From Kaistia soli DSM 19436 (GTDB taxonomy: Bacteria > Pseudomonadota > Alphaproteobacteria > Rhizobiales > Kaistiaceae): DNA of 64,000 bases. Location of the stretch: contig NZ_FQUP01000001.1 in assembly GCF_900129325.1 (NCBI RefSeq), positions 1,178,001-1,242,000 of the forward strand, written 5' to 3'. Below, one piece after another: positions 17,689 through 28,683 of this stretch. The notes under the pieces are model-generated. The model searched no databases, was not told the DNA's origin, and saw only the letters and a list, made by a program, of their open reading frames with translations. The translations under genes and the position numbers were made by a program. Each line of letters begins with the position of its first letter. Position 1 is the stretch's first letter.

Positions 17689-18422
17689 CGCGCGCGGCCG
17701 ACATCAAGGTCGTCTCGCTTGCGGGCGACGACGGAAAGCGGCGCAGCGTCGCCGAGCGGATCTGCGGCAATTGCGGTGCACGGGGCCATGTGCCGAGCCG
17801 CGGTGCCACCGGGCGCGGCATGCCGCCTGAGGCCATCAATCGCATGTTCCGGGCCAAGGGCTGGGAACTCGGCATCGCCGCCTTCAGCGAACGCTGCCCG
17901 GACTGTGTCGCCGCCGCGAAAATCTCCGAGACGATGGAGGAGCCGGCCATGCCGGAGATCAAATCCCCGAACAGCATCGCGGCGATTGCAGCGCTTCCTG
18001 CCACCGCACCGCGCAGCATTACGCCCGACGATCGCCGGCTGATCTTCGTCAAGCTCGGCGACGTCTATGACGACGGCGCCGGCGGCTATGTCGTGGGCTG
18101 GACCGACAAGCGCGTTTCGCAGGATCTTGGGTGTCCCCTCGCCTGGGTGAGCGAGGTCCGCGAACAGATGTTCGGGCCGCTGAAGGCCAATCCGGAGATT
18201 CTGGCGCTGCTCGAGGAGTGTCGCAGGATCTTGGACAAGGCCGAGGAACGGTTCATGGCCGCGCAGCGCCAGCACAATGAGACCGTGCTTGCGATCAGCG
18301 CGGCCGACAAGCGGCTCTCTGCCGAGGGCGCCCGCGTTGTCGATGTCTTCCGGGGCATTACCGAAGACATGGACCGGACGCGGGCCAAGCTGCGCAAGAT
18401 CGAGCAGGCGGTGTTGCCATGA
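17685..18422 (+). CDS. Zinc-knuckle phage protein of unknown function
   Basis: 245 residues from a GTG that overlaps the GcrA-like stop (GTGA). An N-terminal zinc site has CGNCGARGH and, about 40 residues later, CPDC. A middle segment (GWTDKRVSQDLGCPLAWV) resembles a helix-turn-helix, and the C-terminal 80 residues form a coiled coil. The frame opens further upstream to 17445, but that part lies over the GcrA-like gene. The stop overlaps the methyltransferase ATG. Probably a DNA-binding regulator or adaptor; no named family. Confidence 0.7.
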   Translation: MTRAADIKVVSLAGDDGKRRSVAERICGNCGARGHVPSRGATGRGMPPEAINRMFRAKGWELGIAAFSERCPDCVAAAKISETMEEPAMPEIKSPNSIAAIAALPATAPRSITPDDRRLIFVKLGDVYDDGAGGYVVGWTDKRVSQDLGCPLAWVSEVREQMFGPLKANPEILALLEECRRILDKAEERFMAAQRQHNETVLAISAADKRLSAEGARVVDVFRGITEDMDRTRAKLRKIEQAVLP

Positions 18423-19748
18423 GCGAGCCGCGCCTTTTCCTCGGTGGCCGCGTGACGCTCCATCCCGGCGATTGCCGCGAGATGATCCGGCGCATTCCCG
18501 ATGCCTCGATCGACAGCGTCGTCACTGATCCGCCCTATGCGCTTGTCTCGATCGGCAAGCGATTCGGCAAGGAAGGCGCCGCGCCCTCGAAGCCCGGCAA
18601 GACGGGCGCCTATGCCCGCGCCTCGGCGGGCTTCATGGGCAAGGCCTGGGACACCGGCGAGACGGCGTTTGCGGAGGAATTCTGGGCCGAGGTGCTGCGC
18701 GTGCTGAAGCCCGGCGGCCATGTCGTGGCCTTCGGCGGCACGCGCTCCTATCACCGGCTCGCCTGCGCGATCGAGGATGCCGGATTTGAGATCCGCGATC
18801 AGTTGGCGTGGTGTTACGGCGCGGGATTTCCCAAATCGCACGACATTGCCAAGGCGATCGACAAGAGGGGGGGGGCATTACCGCGGCAAGCGCGGGATGC
18901 CGATACCTTTCCAGTCGAGTGCAAAGGGGCAGGAATACGAGCGCACCGAGAAGGGCTCGGCTGTGCTTGACGACGCGAAGGCTTGGGAAGGCTGGGGCAC
19001 AGCGCTCAAGCCGGCCTGGGAACCGATCGTGCTGGCGCGCAAGGCGCTTGTCGGCACCGTCGCCGAGACCGTGCTTGCGCATGGCTGCGGCGGGTTGAAC
19101 ATCGACGGATGCAGAATCCCGGTTGGCGATGGCGATCGACTTGTCAGTTTCGAGCGCGCCGCTGGCGATGTCAGTCGGGAGAACTGGCGCAAAGGCACGT
19201 GCGTCGGTGGCGGCAAGCCGGTCGATCATGGCCGCTGGCCGGCGAACATCCTGCATGACGGCAGCGATGAGGTGCTTGCGGCGTTCCCGGAGTCGGGCGG
19301 CAGCGTGCAGCGCACCGGAAAGCGCACCGGGGTGCTTGGCGACTTTGGAGGCCAGGCGCAAGTCGTCATGGGGCACGACGACGCTGGTGGCTCGGCTGCC
19401 CGGTTTTTCTATTCGGCCAAGGCGGACGCGCATGACCGGATCGGCTCCAAGCATCCGACCGTCAAGCCTGTCGACCTGATGCAATGGCTTTGCCGGCTGG
19501 TGACGCCGCCGGGCGGCACGGTGCTCGATCCCTTCGCCGGCAGCGGCACGACCGGCGAGGCGGCCTGGCGCGAGGGCTTTTTCGCCGTGCTGATCGAGCG
19601 CGAGGCCGAATACCAGGCCGACATCGCGCGGCGGATGGATCTCGCCACCGCCGGCCCGGCGACCCGCAAGGCCGAGAGCACGAAGGCGCGCGGCCGCGCC
19701 GCCGACATGGCCGGGACGCTTTTCGACCAGCCGGAGGCAGCGGAGTGA
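18419..19748 (+). pseudogene. DNA methyltransferase, beta class (N6-A or N4-C), interrupted by a frameshift at a G9 tract
   Basis: The first frame (18419 to about 18875) carries catalytic motif IV TDPPY near residue 38, then GGHVVAFGG. The second frame (from about 18876 to 19748) carries KHPTVKP and the AdoMet-binding motif FAGSGTTGEA. Motif order IV...I is the beta class used by many phage and CcrM-type enzymes. The frames meet at nine consecutive G (18867-18875); eight G would join them into one protein of about 440 residues. As written, frame one ends at 18970 after 183 residues without motif I and should be inactive. This may be a sequencing error, a real mutation or a slippage switch. 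Target sequence unknown. Confidence 0.8.
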
Positions 19749-21135: not shown

Positions 21136-22655
21136 CCAGAAGCCCCGCAGAGACGGACCCCGGCGATGTCGAGACGGTGGCAGCGATTGTCGGGGGCGGG
21201 GAAGCCGATTCCCTTGGTGAACCCCTTTCGGAAGAGACCGGGTTTGAAGGGGTGGAAGCGCTTGACGAGATCCAGCCCGAGGAGGGCGACGGCGGTAAGC
21301 CGACCGAGCCGCAGGCCTGGGGCTTCGATATCGACTGGATGAACGACAACTTCGCCCTGGTCCTGATGGGATCGAAGGCCGTCGTCATTCGCGAGCAGAA
21401 CGTCGGGCCGATCGAGGATCGGGTGCGCATTTTGTCGATCGACGCGTTCAGGGAGAAGTTTCTCAACAAAAGGACGCAGATCATGTCGGGAGACAAGGTC
21501 AAGACGGTCACATGGGCCGATCGTTGGCGCACGCATACCAAGCGGCGGACCTTCGACGGGATCGAGTTCTTTCCGAATCCCGATGGCGCCCTATCGACGC
21601 CCGGTTATTTGAACCTCTATCGCGGCTTCAGCGTGACGCCGAAGGCCAAGCCGCACGGCTATGACGTGCTGCTCGACCATATGCGCAACAATATCTGCCA
21701 TGGCGACGCCGAGCTGTTCCGATGGCTGTTCGGCTGGTTCGCGCACATGATGCAGCGGCCGCGCGAGCGGATCGGCACGGCGCTTGTCGTGCGCGGGCGC
21801 ATGGGCGCCGGCAAGACGATCGTCGGCGAGTTCATGGGCTCGCTGATCGCCTCGCACTACTTCCTCGTCGGCGACGCGCGCTACATCACCGGCAACTTCA
21901 ACGCCCATATGGCGAGCTGCCTGCTGTTGCAGGCCGAGGAAGCGGTCTGGGCCGGCGACAAGGCGGCCGAGGGCCGGCTGAAGGATCTCGTCACGGCCGA
22001 GATCCAGATGATCGAACAGAAGTCGATCGACCCGATTCGGCTGAAGAACTTTGTCCGCCTGATCATGACGTCGAACGAGGATTGGGTCGTGCCGGCGGGC
22101 AAGGATGAGCGGCGCTTTGCCGTCTTCGACGTGCATCCGCGCTGTGCGCAGAACCATGACTATTTCCGCGAGATGCGGGAGGAGATGGATAATGGCGGGC
22201 GCGAGGCGCTGCTCGCCGACCTGCTCGCCTTCGATCTCTCGACGGTCAACCTTCGCCAGATCCCGATGACGTCGGCGCTGCTTGAGCAGAAGTTCCGCTC
22301 GCTCGACACGGTCGAGGCCTGGTGGCTCGAGCGGCTCATGGATGGCTCGACGAAGCGCGGCGGCGGCGATTGGAAGGCCGAGGTCGCGGTCGACACGCTC
22401 TATGACGACTATGTGGCGCAGGCCGAGAAGATCGGCGTCAAGCGCAAGGCCGAGAAGGTCCAGTTTGCGATCAAGCTCGGCAAGCTCGTGCCAGGCCTGC
22501 AGAAGACCCGGCCGTGGGTGACGGACGATCACAACGTGCGCCGACGCACCTGGTCTTACGTGCTGCCTGACCTTGCCACCTGCCGCGCTTTGCTCACCCG
22601 CGCCGTCGGACAGGAGATCGACTGGCCGGATATGGGCGACGAGGAGGCGGCATGA
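21132..22655 (+). CDS. Phage replicative helicase/ATPase (DUF5906-type, SF3-like)
   Basis: 507 residues. After a variable acidic N-terminus (1-60), the ATPase domain (about 180-380) has a Walker A GRMGAGKT, an acidic Walker B region (LLLQAEEAVWAG) and the sensor-like MTSNEDW followed by a conserved Arg pair (DERRFAVFD). This matches the DUF5906/primase-helicase C-terminal family of phages and satellites. Directly downstream of the primase and directly upstream of a dense repeat array, it is the likely initiator or helicase of phage replication. Confidence 0.88.
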   Translation: MTRSPAETDPGDVETVAAIVGGGEADSLGEPLSEETGFEGVEALDEIQPEEGDGGKPTEPQAWGFDIDWMNDNFALVLMGSKAVVIREQNVGPIEDRVRILSIDAFREKFLNKRTQIMSGDKVKTVTWADRWRTHTKRRTFDGIEFFPNPDGALSTPGYLNLYRGFSVTPKAKPHGYDVLLDHMRNNICHGDAELFRWLFGWFAHMMQRPRERIGTALVVRGRMGAGKTIVGEFMGSLIASHYFLVGDARYITGNFNAHMASCLLLQAEEAVWAGDKAAEGRLKDLVTAEIQMIEQKSIDPIRLKNFVRLIMTSNEDWVVPAGKDERRFAVFDVHPRCAQNHDYFREMREEMDNGGREALLADLLAFDLSTVNLRQIPMTSALLEQKFRSLDTVEAWWLERLMDGSTKRGGGDWKAEVAVDTLYDDYVAQAEKIGVKRKAEKVQFAIKLGKLVPGLQKTRPWVTDDHNVRRRTWSYVLPDLATCRALLTRAVGQEIDWPDMGDEEAA

Positions 22656-23001
22656 GCCGATTTTCCGCGTTTTGGTCCAAGGTTACTTGGACCGCGCGCC
22701 GTCACTTGGACCAAAATTCGTCAATGAAATCAACGGCCGGTCCAGGCTGTCCAAGTGGTCCAAGTAAAAAGCCTCACGGGCGCGCGAAGCGGCCGCGACA
22801 GCCCCAAAAATTGCCCCTTCCCGCTCTCGGGGGAAAGAGACGCCGATGAGACAAATACCAGCAACCTCAAAATTACCTGGACCACTTGGACCACTTGGAC
22901 CGGCTCAACAAAATCAACGGGTTAACATGGTCCAGGTACTCTCTTTTCTCTCAATCAACCTTGGACCACTTGGACCAAGCCGGAACGGGGATGAAACGGC
23001 G
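22656..23001. repeat. Iteron-like array of ACTTGGACC 9-mers; candidate phage replication origin
   Basis: About twelve copies of ACTTGGACC or its complement, exact or with one mismatch, lie between 22674 and 22976 in both orientations. Forward sites are near 22685, 22704, 22875, 22884, 22893, 22960 and 22968. Reverse sites are near 22674, 22739, 22749, 22757 and 22929. Two forward copies at 22884-22901 are in perfect 9-bp tandem. A-rich stretches separate the clusters. Open frames through the region translate to repetitive Gly-Pro-Leu or Trp/Ser runs and are not convincing. The site follows primase and helicase genes, so an origin is the best guess; a regulatory array for the downstream NusG-like gene is the alternative. 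Confidence 0.7.
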
Positions 23002-23604
23002 ATGACGAACGGCAGGACGTGGCGGATTGGCGATCTGGTCGACATGCTGCCGCCTCTGGCCGAGGCCGAGATAGCCGCGCCGGGGCTAAATGGCAGCCAA
23101 TGGTTCGTGCTTTCGGTTGAGCCGCGATGCGAGCGCCGCGTGCTGGCCGACCTCGGCAAGGCGCGCATGCCGGGCTATGTGCCCGAGCAGGCCGTCATGC
23201 GGAAGGCGCCGCATCGCCGCCGCTATGCGCGCTGCCTGATGCCGCTGCTGCCCGGCTATGTGTTCGTCGACCTTGCGCCTACGCCGGACGCATGGGCCGC
23301 GGCGCGGGCCGTGCGCGGCGTCAATAGCTTCGTCAAGGGCGCGAACGGCATCAATCCGCTGTGCGTTCCTGATGATGTTGTCGGCGATATCATGTCGGCC
23401 GAGGCGCGCGGGATGTTCGCCGACGATGACCGCCGCATCGTCAAGACGGGCGTGCGGGTGGCGGTCATAGGCGGGCCGTATGACGGCATGGCCGGTGTCG
23501 TCACGCGCGGCGGGCTGGTGACGGCACAGCTGCGGTTCGATGATTGGTCGGCCAAGCGTGCGCCGATCACGATCGCCGTTGACCGACTCGGTGTTCTCGC
23601 GTAA
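23002..23604 (+). CDS. NusG/RfaH-like transcription (anti)termination factor
   Basis: 200 residues starting MTNGRTWRIGDL with a GGGGA box upstream; the frame extends to 22846 only across the repeat array. The NGN domain (about 30-125) shows WFVLSVEPRCERRV, the hydrophobic LMPLLPGYVFVDL and VRGVNSFVKG. A KOW-type motif follows near 155 (VAVIGGPYDGMAGVV). NusG paralogues bind the RNA polymerase clamp and suppress pausing or termination at particular operons. It lies immediately before the terminase and structural genes, with a hairpin in between, so a late-operon antiterminator is the natural inference. Confidence 0.88.
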   Translation: MTNGRTWRIGDLVDMLPPLAEAEIAAPGLNGSQWFVLSVEPRCERRVLADLGKARMPGYVPEQAVMRKAPHRRRYARCLMPLLPGYVFVDLAPTPDAWAAARAVRGVNSFVKGANGINPLCVPDDVVGDIMSAEARGMFADDDRRIVKTGVRVAVIGGPYDGMAGVVTRGGLVTAQLRFDDWSAKRAPITIAVDRLGVLA

Positions 23605-24179: not shown

Positions 24180-24662
24180 ATGGCAGACAATTTCGACCTC
24201 TTTGGCGACACGGTTCCTAACCACTTCGGTGGAAGGGGTCGGCCTCCGCATGTCCCGACCAACGAAAACCGTAACAAAGTCAAGATGTTGCTGGCGTTGG
24301 GCTGGGAGAATGAGCGGATCGCCAATGCCCTTTCGATCACGCCGCCGACGCTGAAGAAGCATTATTTTCGCGAAATGAAGTTCCGCGACGAGATGCGCGA
24401 TCGGCTCGAAAGCCGCTACGCCATGATCGTCTGGATGGGTGTTGAGGAGCGGAGCGGGGCGGCGTTCAAGGAGTTCCGCCGCATCATCGATCACAGCGCC
24501 GCCGAGAATGCGGACGGGCGCGTTCGTGGCCGTGGCGCTCCGAAAGCGCCGAAGCCGCCAAAGCTTGGCAAAAAGGAAGAGCGGAAGCTCGCCGCCGAGA
24601 GCGTCGGCGGCAAATTCTCGCCGCCAGCGCCGCCCAAACTGATTGTGGACAATAACCGCTGA
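24180..24662 (+). CDS. terS: Terminase small subunit-like protein
   Basis: 160 residues starting [14 protein letters not shown] helix-turn-helix (about 30-60, [20 protein letters not shown]) is followed by a helical oligomerisation region and a basic, Pro-rich tail. This is the size, motif and position expected of a small terminase subunit that recognises the packaging site. Stop and the large-subunit ATG overlap (TGATG). An alternative start at 24150 adds ten residues. Confidence 0.75.
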
Positions 24663-26350
24663 TGCAGTGGTCGACCGCGTGTCGCGATTGGGAACGGCGG
24701 ATCGTCGAGGGTCGATCGCTGATCGCCTTCGATCCTCTGTTCCCGGACGAGGCAGAGGCAGCCCTCGCCGTCTTCAAGTCGCTCCGCATCGTCGATGCGC
24801 CAGGCCAGCCAACTTTTGGCGAGGCCTGCGATGAATGGGTATTCGACTTCGTCCGGGCGATCTTCGGTGCCTATGATCACGGCACCGCGCGCCGCCTGAT
24901 CCGCGAGTTCTTCCTGCTGATCAGCAAGAAGAACTCAAAGTCGACGATTGCCGCCGGGATCATGTTGACGGCGCTCATCCGAAACTGGCGGTTTTCGGCG
25001 GAACTGCTGATCCTGGCGCCGACGCTCGAGATCGCCAACAACAGCTACAAGCCAGCGGCCGATATGGTTCGTGCCGATCCCGAGCTCGACGCTCTTCTGC
25101 ATATTCAGGATAATTTCCGGCAGATCACGCACCGGATAACCGGCGCGGTGCTTAAGGTCGTGGCGGCCGACACCGATACGGTCGGCGGCAAGAAGGCGGC
25201 TTTCGTCCTGATCGACGAGCTGTGGATCTTCGGAAAGCGGCCGAACGCCGACGCGATGCTGCGCGAGGCAACGGGCGGGCTGGTTTCCCGTCCAGAGGGC
25301 TTCGTCATCTATCTCTCGACGCAGTCTGACACGCCGCCCGCGGGCGTCTTCAAGGCCAAGCTCGATTATTTCCGGGCTGTGCGCGATGGCGACGTCGAGG
25401 ACAATAAGAGCCTTGGCGTGATCTACGAGTTCCCGAAGGCGATGATCGCGGCCAAGGCGTACCTGGTGCCCGCGAACTTCTACATCACCAACCCGAATAT
25501 CGGTCGATCGGTCGATCGGGAGTGGATCGAAGGCGAGTTGGTTAAGGAGTTAGGAACGACAGGCGGCGGCACGCTGCAAACGTTCCTGTCAAAGCATCTC
25601 AATATCGAGATCGGGCTCAATCTCCGGAATGATCGCTGGGCTGGTGTCGATCATTGGGATGCCGCGGTCGAGCCCGAGATGACGCTCAGTGAGCTTCTCG
25701 ATCGTGCCGAGGTGGTGACGATCGGCATCGACGGCGGCGGCCTCGACGATCTGTTTGGCCTGGCTGTCATCGGTCGTGAGGCTGAAACGCAGCGCTGGCT
25801 GCATTGGTCGAAGTCATGGGCTTATGAGGTGGCGCTCGAACGCCGCAAGGCCGAGGCAGCCCGCTTACAGGATTTCGCGACGCAAGGCGATCTGGTCATC
25901 GTCAAGCGGCTCGGCGACGACATCGAAGAGATCGCCGACCTGGTCGCCAGCATCGAAGAGACCGGCAAGCTTGCTCAGGTCGGCCTCGATCCGGTTGGTA
26001 TCGGCGCCATCGTCGACGCCATGGCGCTTCGCGGTATCGAGGGCGCCGAGCGGATCCACGGCATCTCGCAGGGTTGGAAGATGTCGGGAGCCATCAAGAC
26101 GCTGGAGCGCAAGCTTGCCGACGGCACGTTTGTCCATTGCGGGCAGCCGATCATGGCATGGGCGGTCGCGAATGCCCGTGTCGAGCCGAAGGGCAATGCC
26201 GTCACGATCACGAAGCAAATTTCCGGCTCCGGCAAAATTGATCCGCTGATGGCGACGTTCAACGCTGCGGCCCTTATGAGCCGCAACCCCGCCGCAATCG
26301 GCGGCCCGTCCGTCTATGAAACCCGTGGCATCCTCGAGGTCGAGATCTGA
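24662..26350 (+). CDS. terL: Terminase large subunit (HK97-type)
   Basis: 562-residue packaging motor. The N-terminal ATPase domain shows an adenine-binding region ([13 protein letters not shown], Walker A near 90-97) and Walker B LIDELW near 183. The C-terminal RNase-H-like nuclease domain begins near 350 with the acidic IGIDGGG and carries a further acidic site near 440 (GLDPVGIG). It cuts concatemers and pumps DNA into the prohead. Followed by a tiny membrane protein and the portal. Confidence 0.94.
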
Positions 26351-26351
26351 C

Positions 26352-26501
26352 ATGAGCCGTCCTTCGGTATCCGATCTCGTCGCGATCGTCGGCGTCGGTC
26401 TCATCGGCTTTGGCGCCTGGCTGATATTCCCGCCGGCTGGATACATCGTTGTCGGGTCGCTGCTGCTCGCCGGCGCGGTGCTTGGGGCTAGGGGCGCCTG
26501 A
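26352..26501 (+). CDS. Small membrane protein between terminase and portal
   Basis: 49 residues starting MSRPSVSDLVAIVGVG with two hydrophobic segments separated by PPAG. Starts 1 bp after the terL stop and its stop overlaps the portal ATG. Small membrane proteins at this position recur in related prophages, but I know no function. Confidence 0.6.
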   Translation: MSRPSVSDLVAIVGVGLIGFGAWLIFPPAGYIVVGSLLLAGAVLGARGA

Positions 26502-27784
26502 TGTCGTTCCTCGCGAGCATCTTCGGGCAAACGAGTTCGGTCGCCGATAACTCGGGATGGTTTGTCCGCGCCGTCGGCTTCGGCAAGACGAAGGCGGGCA
26601 CGGTCGTTTCTGAGCACAATGCCCGCAATCAGCCGGTGGTCTATGCCTGCGTCAACCGGATCGCCAATCCGATCGCCCGGTTTCCGCTCAAGATGTTCAA
26701 GCGGGACAAGGACGGCGGCTCCAAAGAGGTCACGAGCGAGCAGCATCCGCTCGCGCGCGGTCTGGCGATGCGGCCGAACGAATTTATGTCGTCGCGAACG
26801 CTCCGGAAGACGGTCCAGGGTCACGCGCTCCTGTGGGGCAATGGCTATGTCGAGATTGAGCGCAACCAGCGAGGTCAGTCGGTTGGTCTCTGGCCTCTTC
26901 TCCCAGATCGCACACGTCCGGTGCGCGAGGGGAATGCATTCTTCTACCGGACGAACATTGCTGGTGAGACATTTGATATCGATTCCGGCAACGTCATCCA
27001 TGTGATGGACCAGAGCCATGATGGCTATGTTGGTCAATCGCCGATCTGGCATGCGCGTAATGCGCTCGGCCTGGCCTTTGCGATGGAGGAGTTCGGCTCC
27101 AAGTTCTTTGCGAACGACGCCAAGAGCGGCGGGTTCCTCCAGCATCCAGGAAGGCTAGGCACCGAGGCGCGCGCCAACCTGAAAAAGGCGCCGGAGGAGC
27201 GGACGGACGCGGGTGCCAGCCTTGAACGACAGGGCGGGCTCGACAATGCGCACCGGGTCAAGATCCTTGAGGAGGGCATGAAATTCGTCTCGACGACGAT
27301 CCCCCAGGATGATGCGCAGTTTCTTGGGTCGCGCGAATTCCAGATTGCCGAGATCGCCCGCATCTTTGACGTGCCGCTTGTGCTGCTGCAGAGCCATGAG
27401 AAGTCCACTTCATGGGGATCCGGCATCGAGCAACTGATGATCGGGTTCGTGCGTCAGACGATCGACCCCTGGGTCGATGCCTGGGAACAGGAACTCAACT
27501 GGAAGCTCTTCACCGAGGAGGAGCGAAGCGAAGGCTTCTTCGTGAAGTTCAACATGAACGCGATTCTGCGGGGCGACATGGCCGCGCGCGCCGCGTTTTA
27601 TGGCGGACTGTTCCAGGTCGGCGCGATCTCGCCCAACCAGGTGCTGGCGCTCGAGGATTTCGAAGGGATCGGCCCGGACGGCGATCACCATTTCGTGCCA
27701 GCCGCCATGACGCCGCTCGATCGCGCCATCAACCCGCCCGAGCCGCCGCCGCAGTTGCCATCACCGCCAAAGGAACCAGCATGA
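26501..27784 (+). CDS. Portal protein (HK97 family)
   Basis: 427 residues. The dodecameric portal is the vertex through which DNA enters and leaves. Characteristic blocks are VVYACVNRIANPIARFPL near 47, HALLWGNGYVEIERN near 107, FFANDAKSGGFL near 205, and FDVPLVLLQ followed by the conserved QTIDPW region. Length is normal for the HK97 gp3 family. The Pro-rich C-terminus ends in an overlap with the protease gene (ATGA). Confidence 0.94.
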   Translation: MSFLASIFGQTSSVADNSGWFVRAVGFGKTKAGTVVSEHNARNQPVVYACVNRIANPIARFPLKMFKRDKDGGSKEVTSEQHPLARGLAMRPNEFMSSRTLRKTVQGHALLWGNGYVEIERNQRGQSVGLWPLLPDRTRPVREGNAFFYRTNIAGETFDIDSGNVIHVMDQSHDGYVGQSPIWHARNALGLAFAMEEFGSKFFANDAKSGGFLQHPGRLGTEARANLKKAPEERTDAGASLERQGGLDNAHRVKILEEGMKFVSTTIPQDDAQFLGSREFQIAEIARIFDVPLVLLQSHEKSTSWGSGIEQLMIGFVRQTIDPWVDAWEQELNWKLFTEEERSEGFFVKFNMNAILRGDMAARAAFYGGLFQVGAISPNQVLALEDFEGIGPDGDHHFVPAAMTPLDRAINPPEPPPQLPSPPKEPA

Positions 27785-28683
27785 GATATGCTCACATATT
27801 GCTTGCGGTCACCGAGGAGCGCTGGGCGATCCGCGAGGAAAAGCTGCAGGCAATCCTCGACTTTCTGGCTCTGCAGGCGGCGGGCGGCAAGCTCTCGGCC
27901 GAAGAGATCGAAGCGCGGGTCACCAAGCAGACGGAGCGCGATGTCGCGCGCCAGCAGGGCAGCGTCGCCATCCTCCCGCTGCGCGGCGTCATCGCGAACC
28001 GCATGTCGATGATGGACGATATTTCGGGGGGCACCTCGTCCGAAGGCTTTGGTCGCTTGTTCCAGGCGGCGGTTCGCGACGGGAGCACGAAAGCGATCGT
28101 CATCGACGTGGATTCGCCTGGCGGCGCTGTCAGTGGCAGCGACGAGCTTGCGAGCCTGATCTACAGCGCGCGCGGCCAGAAGCCGATCATTGCGCATGTG
28201 AACGCGACGGCCGCCAGCGCTGCCTACTGGATCGCATCGGCTGCCGACGAGGTCGTTGTGACGCCCTCGGGCAGCGTCGGTTCGATCGGCGTGTTTGGCG
28301 TGCACAACGATGTCAGCGGCGCACTGACAGCGCAGGGCGTCAAGAAAACACTTGTGAGCGCCGGCAAGTTCAAGACGGCGGGCAACCCCTATGAGCCGCT
28401 CGACGAGGAAACCCGGGCGCGCATGCAGGCGCGCGTCGATACTGCCTACGAGATGTTCGTCCGGACGGTCGCCCGCAACCGTGGCGTCGCCCTGAATTCT
28501 GTGCGCAACGGTTTCGGCCAGGGCGACATGGTCGACGCCGAGCCTGCGGTTGCCGAAGGCATGGCCGACCGAGTCGGAACGCTCGAGGAGACGCTGCAGC
28601 GCTTCGGCGCCTCGCTTTATGCGCCGGTCGCGAAGCGCAAGGCTTTTGCTCCGCAACGCGAGCGCCGCGCGCTCGATCTCTGA
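27781..28683 (+). CDS. Capsid maturation protease (S49/SppA family)
   Basis: 300 residues starting MRYAHILLAVTEERW. The S49 serine protease core (about 60-260) shows VIDVDSPGGAVSGSDEL. The catalytic Ser is expected in NATAASAAYWIAS and the Lys in VSAGKFKTAGNP. It processes the capsid delta domain during head maturation. It lies between portal and major capsid protein, the usual position. The start overlaps the portal stop; the longer frame to 27412 is the portal shadow. Confidence 0.92.
   Translation: MRYAHILLAVTEERWAIREEKLQAILDFLALQAAGGKLSAEEIEARVTKQTERDVARQQGSVAILPLRGVIANRMSMMDDISGGTSSEGFGRLFQAAVRDGSTKAIVIDVDSPGGAVSGSDELASLIYSARGQKPIIAHVNATAASAAYWIASAADEVVVTPSGSVGSIGVFGVHNDVSGALTAQGVKKTLVSAGKFKTAGNPYEPLDEETRARMQARVDTAYEMFVRTVARNRGVALNSVRNGFGQGDMVDAEPAVAEGMADRVGTLEETLQRFGASLYAPVAKRKAFAPQRERRALDL

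Follow-up and report, generated by a model that had tools for sequence, protein, structure and literature searches.

Directly behind the gene for a DUF5906 helicase in a prophage of Kaistia soli DSM 19436 lies an array of twelve 9-bp repeats (iterons). In all likelihood this array is the replication origin of the prophage, bound by the C-terminal winged-helix domain of the helicase; both binding and initiation are inferred, and no replication mapping is at hand. Related phages very probably keep the layout of about twelve repeats and change the repeat word in step with the helicase, a reading drawn from sequence comparison. An origin bound by an SF3-like helicase had been proposed from the letters of the DNA alone (the original prediction), and it is now supported by the position of the array, its recurring geometry, its presence on plasmids, and the covariation of helicase residues with iteron bases, with initiation still inferred. 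The stretch of DNA analysed here, referred to as the window, is 64,000 nucleotides long, and all coordinates without a locus label are positions in it.

Organization of the array

The helicase gene ends at 22655 and the first iteron lies 18 bp past its stop codon. The original prediction spoke of about twelve near-identical 9-mers in both orientations, some in tandem; there are indeed twelve, on both strands, between 22674 and 22976. Six are exact copies of ACTTGGACC, five have one mismatch, and one (at 22739) has two. The copies start at 22674 (-), 22685 (+), 22704 (+), 22739 (-), 22748 (-), 22757 (-), 22875 (+), 22884 (+), 22893 (+), 22929 (-), 22959 (+), and 22968 (+). Such a density had been judged beyond chance, and the counts bear this out: the 346-bp array stretch holds 11 sites with at most one mismatch, and the maximum in 2000 two-base-block shuffles of the stretch is 2. 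The whole window contains 20 sites within one mismatch of ACTTGGACC versus 6.9 expected, and no second such array. When a 17-mer of the tandem unit is searched with up to two mismatches, the array is its sole occurrence in the 5.23-Mb host genome; with up to one mismatch, the 17-mer was not found in the 150 other genomes searched.

The iterons follow a dyad order that the original prediction missed, in that two inverted halves of six iterons flank a 109-bp centre. With spacings in bp in brackets, the array reads -(2)+(10)+(26)---(109)+++(27)-(21)++. The left half-origin (22674–22765) comprises the six 9-bp iterons before the centre and the right half-origin (22875–22976) the six after it; no strand is assigned to either half or to the central spacer (22766–22874). 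The spacer contains GCGCGCG and, at 22821–22828, a CCGCTCTC element, and is not AT-rich overall. GC skew keeps its sign across the array.

Neighbouring genes and the nature of the element

The gene order is primase, helicase, array, NusG-domain protein, HNH gene, terminase large subunit, portal, and head protease. The primase, P0002 (19954–21135, + strand, 393 aa), is of the DnaG type (CHC2/Toprim) according to its family matches, and is presumed to be the partner of the helicase. The helicase, P0001 (21132–22655, + strand, 507 aa), is the proposed initiator; it is an SF3-type helicase of the DUF5906 family (PF19263, 3.3e-21, 76.5 bits against a cut-off of 27.6), and its PHROG label is 'DNA primase'. 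The NusG-domain protein (23002–23604, + strand; PHROG transcription antiterminator) follows the array. Its start codon was chosen by judgement: the frame is open from 22846, across the right half of the array, and the matched domain begins after the array, and 23002 is considered the likelier start. A 65-codon open frame across the left half (22652–22849, + strand) has no family match and was judged not to be a gene. Its sole match among 160 helicase loci (BLAST, low-complexity filter on) is L142, and its sole match among 46 stretches from an 18-mer scan (filter off) is L048; both are the same prophage as that of the window. The open frames through the array (22652–22849 and 22846–23001) look low-complexity, as had been noted from the letters.

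The gene for the terminase large subunit (24662–26350, + strand) lies 1.7 kb past the array, followed by those for portal (26501–27784) and head protease (27412–28683). Since the element has its own terminase, portal, and head protease, it is a tailed prophage and not a satellite; an assignment as a PICI element was rejected on the same grounds. Upstream of the primase gene, the overlapping frames 18419–18970 and 18720–19748 match successive parts of the DNA methyltransferase profile phrog_67, which indicates either a split gene or a frame error.

The array in relatives of the helicase

Helicase loci were collected as the best 80 of 95 from GTDB genomes and the best 80 of 228 from IMG/VR, and some of these loci are the same prophage. 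An array was called if an 8-mer occurred at least four times within 700 bp past the helicase stop and exceeded every one of 30 dinucleotide shuffles. By this test an array follows the helicase stop in 119 of 155 loci; of the control segments, 2 of 135 taken upstream and 7 of 147 taken further downstream pass. With a minimum of six copies, arrays are found behind 14 of 23 homologues with 40–50% identity, 7 of 17 with less than 40%, and 6 of 12 with a C-terminus that fails to align. The original prediction was to be refuted by absence of the array from otherwise syntenic phages. Arrays of six or more copies follow 93 of 101 full-length homologues that are at least 50% identical; in distant phages, eight of nine records have no clear array. 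The eight close homologues below the array threshold are L069, L073, L075, L113, L144, L150, L166, and L194, and in L073 an array is visible with a different choice of unit. Among the distant phages, no array was found behind the homologous helicase in YuA, MW2, TM26, RDJL Phi 2, Sonora, Tedan, and phiVC8. What follows the helicase in AAT-1 is a weak repeat of four copies, not a clear array, and in Microcystis phage Mwe-JY26 it is a weak six-copy array, which 4% of shuffles reach. No 9-mer array was found within the first 50 of the 58.7 kb of YuA. The helicase relative of YuA type, which can be aligned to 85% of P0001, is labelled 'integrase' in several phage records (e.g. KY000218.1). A 9-bp array of ACGGTGGAC on both strands is present in phiVC8 (L230, 38326–38553), about 14 kb from the helicase gene.

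The geometry recurs. Of 98 distinct arrays that have seven or more copies, 84 show two sets of iterons around a centre; 40 bp was set as the lower limit for a centre, and the longest is 139 bp. In these 84 arrays the left side has six iterons in 61, the right side in 55, and both in 42, so that half of the arrays are not six-plus-six by the count used. The commonest order, read outward, is +++-++ on both sides (34 and 46 of 84). The recurring layout is - - (10 or 20) + (26/27) - - - on the left and + + + (26/27) - (10 or 20) + + on the right. Spacings of 10 and 20 bp are about one helical turn apart, from which it is inferred that the face of the helix may matter.

The word itself varies. About 66 forms of the consensus unit occur in 126 loci, roughly [GA][GC]TNGGAC[AC], for example GGTTGGACA, GGTGGGACA, ACTTGGACC, GGTCGGACA, GGTAGGACA, CCTATGACA, and GGTCTGACA. 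These forms include register and strand variants, and the 126 entries include duplicates (for example the window and L142) and one locus, L008, without a DUF5906 helicase. Out of nine bases, copies inside a locus differ by 1.08 on average (a value limited by the two-mismatch cut for copies) and the consensus units of different loci by 3.57. At a locus of the same genus (L233), whose helicase is 71–74% identical, the array is in the same place and the inner word is GGTTGGACA instead of ACTTGGACC; the word thus turns over within the genus. In two genomes that carry two helicase-array loci each, Paracoccus lutimaris (L110/L114) and Methylobacterium gnaphalii (L084/L088), the words of the pair differ, as expected if shared words were incompatible.

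Other observations concern the surroundings and outliers of the family. A cluster of proteins from 33 loci (L190:5422–6483 and 32 others) begins roughly at the end of the array, with a median distance of 329 bp from the helicase stop; its representative matches phrog_9306 (unknown function) and has no Pfam match. In L008 (1852–2016) the gene before an array of ACTTGGACC encodes not a DUF5906 helicase but another initiator, a Prim-Pol plus AAA_25 protein; ACTTGGACC or its reader may be common to different helicase classes. L033 (8268–8404) contains two inverted triplets of 9-mers and no outer iterons, and no helicase match was found in the stretch of the contig searched. L008 and L033 come from the 18-mer scan of viral contigs, many of whose stretches have only 2–5 sites in their best 500 bp; of the five stretches followed further (L008, L029, L033, L045, and L048), three match the helicase, namely L029, L045, and L048. 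The scan also returned several long one-strand repeats with a 9-bp period (e.g. L010, L018, L026), and two candidates, L022 and L030, were rejected as arrays as they look like coding repeats.

The array also occurs outside phages. Seven plasmids were read among eight records with a helicase homologue, and in five of them the helicase is followed by two iteron sets of opposite orientation: L222 (Roseomonas, 9.7 kb), L223 (pMP1, 7.6 kb), L225 (9.3 kb), L226 (pEC224_4), and L228. The array of L224 is marginal and L227 has none. Among ten plasmid coding sequences scanned (6 of 10 in L222, 3 of 6 in L224, and 1 of 10 in L225), DUF5906 proteins are the only replication proteins recognised and no terminase is above the cut-off; one coding sequence of L222 has a sub-threshold TerL_ATPase match. 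pEC224_4 also carries an annotated RepB.

The helicase and its winged helix

The structural model of the helicase has a mean pLDDT of 90.2 and ends in a winged helix. This domain (residues 393–492; 22308–22607, + strand) is proposed to be the iteron reader on the basis of the predicted structure and the covariation described below. It is predicted to have helices at residues 393–404, 420–434, and 442–452 and strands at 457–459, 462–464, 470–472, and 475–477, and the same elements appear if the domain is modelled alone. Residues 442–452 form the predicted recognition helix and residues 457–464 the predicted wing hairpin. The folds nearest to the helicase are the C-terminal region of the NrS-1 polymerase, the SaPI5 primase-helicase, poxvirus D5/E5, AAV Rep, and papillomavirus E1. 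NrS-1 (PDB 6k9c, 6k9e, 6lrb) is the best match in both fold and sequence (Z 26.9, 368 residues aligned). By their structure titles, solved relatives are hexamers and, for one, dodecamers; rings are solved for relatives only, and hexamer formation and helicase activity of P0001 are inferred. A Foldseek search with the winged helix alone gave no match at E ≤ 0.001, and its top rows, with weak E-values, include the DNA binders RFX, ORC, and RTP.

Distances between iterons track distances between C-terminal regions when the rest of the protein is allowed for (partial r 0.276, reached in 0 of 300 permutations), and do not track those of the N-terminal region (-0.131) or the core (0.062, reached in 46 of 300 permutations). 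Single residues were compared with single bases in 79 loci that have at least seven copies and distinct helicases, with 19 loci of unclear register or orientation listed for exclusion. T occupies residue 443 in 45 of the 49 loci whose base 2 is G, and in none of the other 30. For base 9, loci with C have P at residue 461 in 19 of 25 cases, the others in 1 of 54; for base 7, loci with G have K at residue 460 in 12 of 13 cases, the others in 7 of 66. For base 4, loci with G have R at residue 458 in 20 of 23 cases, those with T in 1 of 37. In the predicted structure residue 443 is at the start of the recognition helix and residues 458–461 are in the wing hairpin.

A tree was built from helicase residues 70–400 only. 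On that tree, a change of the paired base on the same branch accompanies 13 of the 16 changes at residue 443, 9 of the 12 at 461, and 5 of the 11 at 460. 443T, 461P, and 460K each rank first for their own base out of 732 residue states, that is, states present in at least eight loci with at least five changes. Without the exclusions (101 loci) the pair of 443 and base 2 is still first, core residue 268 comes third, and the signal at 461 falls outside the top ten; core residue 302 ties with the pair of 460 and base 7 in one association scan. Out of sample, the rule for 443 and base 2 holds in L233–L236, four loci with aligned C-termini whose words and registers were read by eye, and the rule for 461 and base 9 holds in three of these and fails in L233. 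L233 breaks the wing rules: its inner iterons end in A despite 461P, and its base 4 is T despite 458R. Six distant cases have an uncertain alignment, and in these the rule for 443 and base 2 agrees with L222, L225, L226, and L029 and disagrees with L061 and L230. L223, L224, L228, and other newly found loci were omitted from the test as their register or alignment is unclear. Taken at this level, recognition of the iterons by the C-terminal winged helix is supported by covariation among sequences, without a binding assay.

IHF-like sites and the central spacer

The 26/27-bp gaps that separate the inner three iterons from the outer three are not featureless. In the right 27-bp gap of the window, AATCAACGGGTTA (22912–22924, + strand) is a perfect match to WATCAANNNNTTR, which we take to be the IHF consensus. 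The left gap of the window has no good match (four mismatches in the expected orientation and two in the other). Allowing one mismatch, 30 of the 72 distinct gaps on the right and 23 of the 75 on the left contain WATCAANNNNTTR, as against about 0.7 expected on each side from shuffles; these were mononucleotide shuffles, and as the loci are related the counts are not independent. Of the 53 IHF-like sites, 50 lie at an offset of 9–10 from the inner triad, and the sites point outward on both sides with one case reversed. It is inferred, with no IHF binding data, that a sharp bend at such a gap would put the outer three iterons beside the inner three.

The centres are on average 43% AT versus 41% around them. 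AT content reaches 72% in the last tenth of the centres, and in 44 of 55 the best 15-bp stretch is above that of shuffles. CGCGCG is present in 45 of 54 central spacers, compared with a mean of 0.10–0.13 of control segments, and alternating purine-pyrimidine runs of at least 12 are present in 35 of 54 (the longest run in the window is only 7). The central spacers are thus possibly a Z-DNA-prone tract. The CCGCTCTC element, several times as TCCCGCTCTCGCGGG, is found in 7 of 55 centres, namely those of the window, L062, L146, L155, L164, L170, and L181.

Proposed model of origin function and alternative explanations

The steps below are built on what is observed, namely the array and the recurrence of its geometry, the motif resembling an IHF site, and the covariation of iterons with the winged helix. 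The winged helix of P0001 would bind the 9-bp iterons directly, six iterons per inverted half-site with one subunit per iteron; the binding and the number of rings are inferred. IHF, where a site is present, may bend the 26/27-bp gap and bring the outer iterons beside the inner triad. Two helicase rings could then assemble face to face over the centre, double-hexamer loading being likewise an inference. The duplex of the centre would open and the neighbouring DnaG-type primase would prime synthesis, and for neither opening nor initiation is there more than inference.

P4 crr is a copy-control, incompatibility, or autoregulatory type of site, and the array could be mainly a site of this kind, bound by the helicase while replication starts elsewhere. 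We regard this as improbable, though the covariation speaks for recognition and not for initiation, the centre is not rich in AT, GC skew gives no signal, and the phiVC8 array lies far from the helicase gene. The window has only one such array, and in the 9.7-kb plasmid L222 the array is in the same place, with a DUF5906 protein as the only replication protein recognised in the 6 of 10 coding sequences scanned. In SaPI/PICI elements, moreover, it is the stretch 3' of the initiator that serves as origin (PMC6092414, PMC7581432; both available in part).

The position of the array between replication and packaging genes, 1.7 kb before the terminase gene, would also suit a cos/pac site bound by the terminase small subunit. 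In such a site IHF would be arranged as in lambda cosB, and IHF between repeats with an HNH gene nearby, as here, is a feature of cos regions. This is nevertheless very improbable. The geometry precedes two families of terminase large subunit, gpA-type in a 28-locus cluster and TerL_ATPase type, as in the window, in a 14-locus cluster (one representative scanned per cluster); the array of L067 has a tape-measure gene 1.2 kb on; and the same geometry recurs on small plasmids, where no terminase is above the cut-off in the ten coding sequences. The tie to a particular terminase that a cos/pac site would have is therefore lacking, and in addition the iteron covaries with helicase residues. Antitermination or other transcription control with the downstream NusG-like protein, named as the alternative in the original prediction, has in its favour that the NusG-domain gene directly follows the array. 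It loses nearly all credibility as NusG-like homologues are found at only 4 of 122 array loci (tblastn; one of them, L142, is the same prophage) and NusG-type clusters at only 9 and 4 loci, and as the sites are on both strands with dyad symmetry. Least of all can the repeats be put down to translation of the stretch into a tripeptide repeat (PLGPLGP), an idea that may virtually be dismissed. Nine bp is three codons, and the frames 22652–22849 and 22846–23604 are open and overlap their neighbours by ATGA, but the copies share neither strand nor frame, relatives keep the spacing and change the unit, and the small frame has no match outside this prophage among the loci and stretches searched.

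Comparison with known systems

The best reading, which rests on analogy, is that the array is the origin of a self-loading helicase and may work like a SaPI/PICI origin, but in a whole prophage. P4 alpha is a fused primase/helicase initiator that binds short iterons in both orientations, and it is similar to P0001 in that respect; unlike it, P0001 has a separate DnaG-type primase, and P4 is a satellite. The accessible part of PMC6092414 names the P4 alpha protein together with its cognate ori site. As far as the available portions of the papers go, the SaPI helicase uses its C-terminal domain to recognise an origin that lies immediately past the helicase gene, and appears to bind as two hexamers (PMC7581432). 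The SaPI/PICI pri-rep-ori arrangement is thus alike in having the ori directly 3' of the gene for the initiator helicase (PMC6092414, PMC7581432). It is also alike in having two sets of iterons (here two inverted ones), and may be alike in the reading of iterons by a C-terminal domain, which here is inferred from covariation and not from a binding assay (PMC7581432). The SaPI5 primase-helicase, as mentioned, is among the closest folds to P0001. The differences are that the present array belongs to a tailed prophage with its own packaging genes, or to a plasmid, that the AT-rich middle of SaPI/PICI origins is not clearly present, that the halves are inverted, mostly of six iterons, and accompanied by IHF-like sites, and that the iterons turn over between relatives along with winged-helix residues.

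Geminivirus Rep is the rolling-circle Rep of ssDNA plant viruses and is unrelated to the helicase here. Geminivirus iterons are unlike the present ones in that they are located upstream of rep and are 5–6 nt long. They are alike in that their positions and patterns are conserved while their sequences diverge and are recognised by the cognate Rep, according to the part of the source at hand (PMC12548392). In SCCmec the D5-family helicase Cch2 likewise binds direct repeats just past its own gene, at a putative origin; these are three 5-nt iterons, and no six-plus-six dyad or IHF site is mentioned in the portion of the paper available (PMC7581432). The C-terminal region of the NrS-1 polymerase forms a hexameric ring; its Tail fold is called novel, and the text available in part makes no mention of an iteron array (PMC7102993). 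NrS-1 has a fused Prim/Pol domain, unlike P0001 with its separate primase. No description of the present array layout was found in open-licence PMC papers, among the matches listed.

A more far-reaching reading is also conceivable, and we offer it tentatively, with more doubt than confidence. It takes these loci as one large family of prophage origins, and some plasmid ones, with a frozen geometry of six iterons in each half, a face-to-face double hexamer in which every subunit of a ring has its own iteron, folding of each half by IHF, concerted replacement of word and winged helix, and turnover through avoidance of incompatibility. As part of the same tentative reading, turnover would be driven by selection against origin incompatibility between related prophages that share hosts, and concerted replacement of the word at twelve places together with a few winged-helix residues would amount to a readable protein-DNA code.

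Significance

DUF5906, so far a 'family of unknown function', gains a likely role as the origin-binding replication initiator of many prophages, and the array layout provides a sequence rule for finding the origins of DUF5906 prophages. The six-plus-six layout with variable words constitutes a natural series of matched protein-DNA pairs. Three questions thereby become directly testable: what sets the number and orientation of self-loading SF3 helicases on duplex DNA, how the specificity of a winged helix changes in small steps, and whether origin words set compatibility among coexisting prophages and small plasmids. The helicase and its iterons would thus be a testable natural example of coevolution between a protein and its DNA target.
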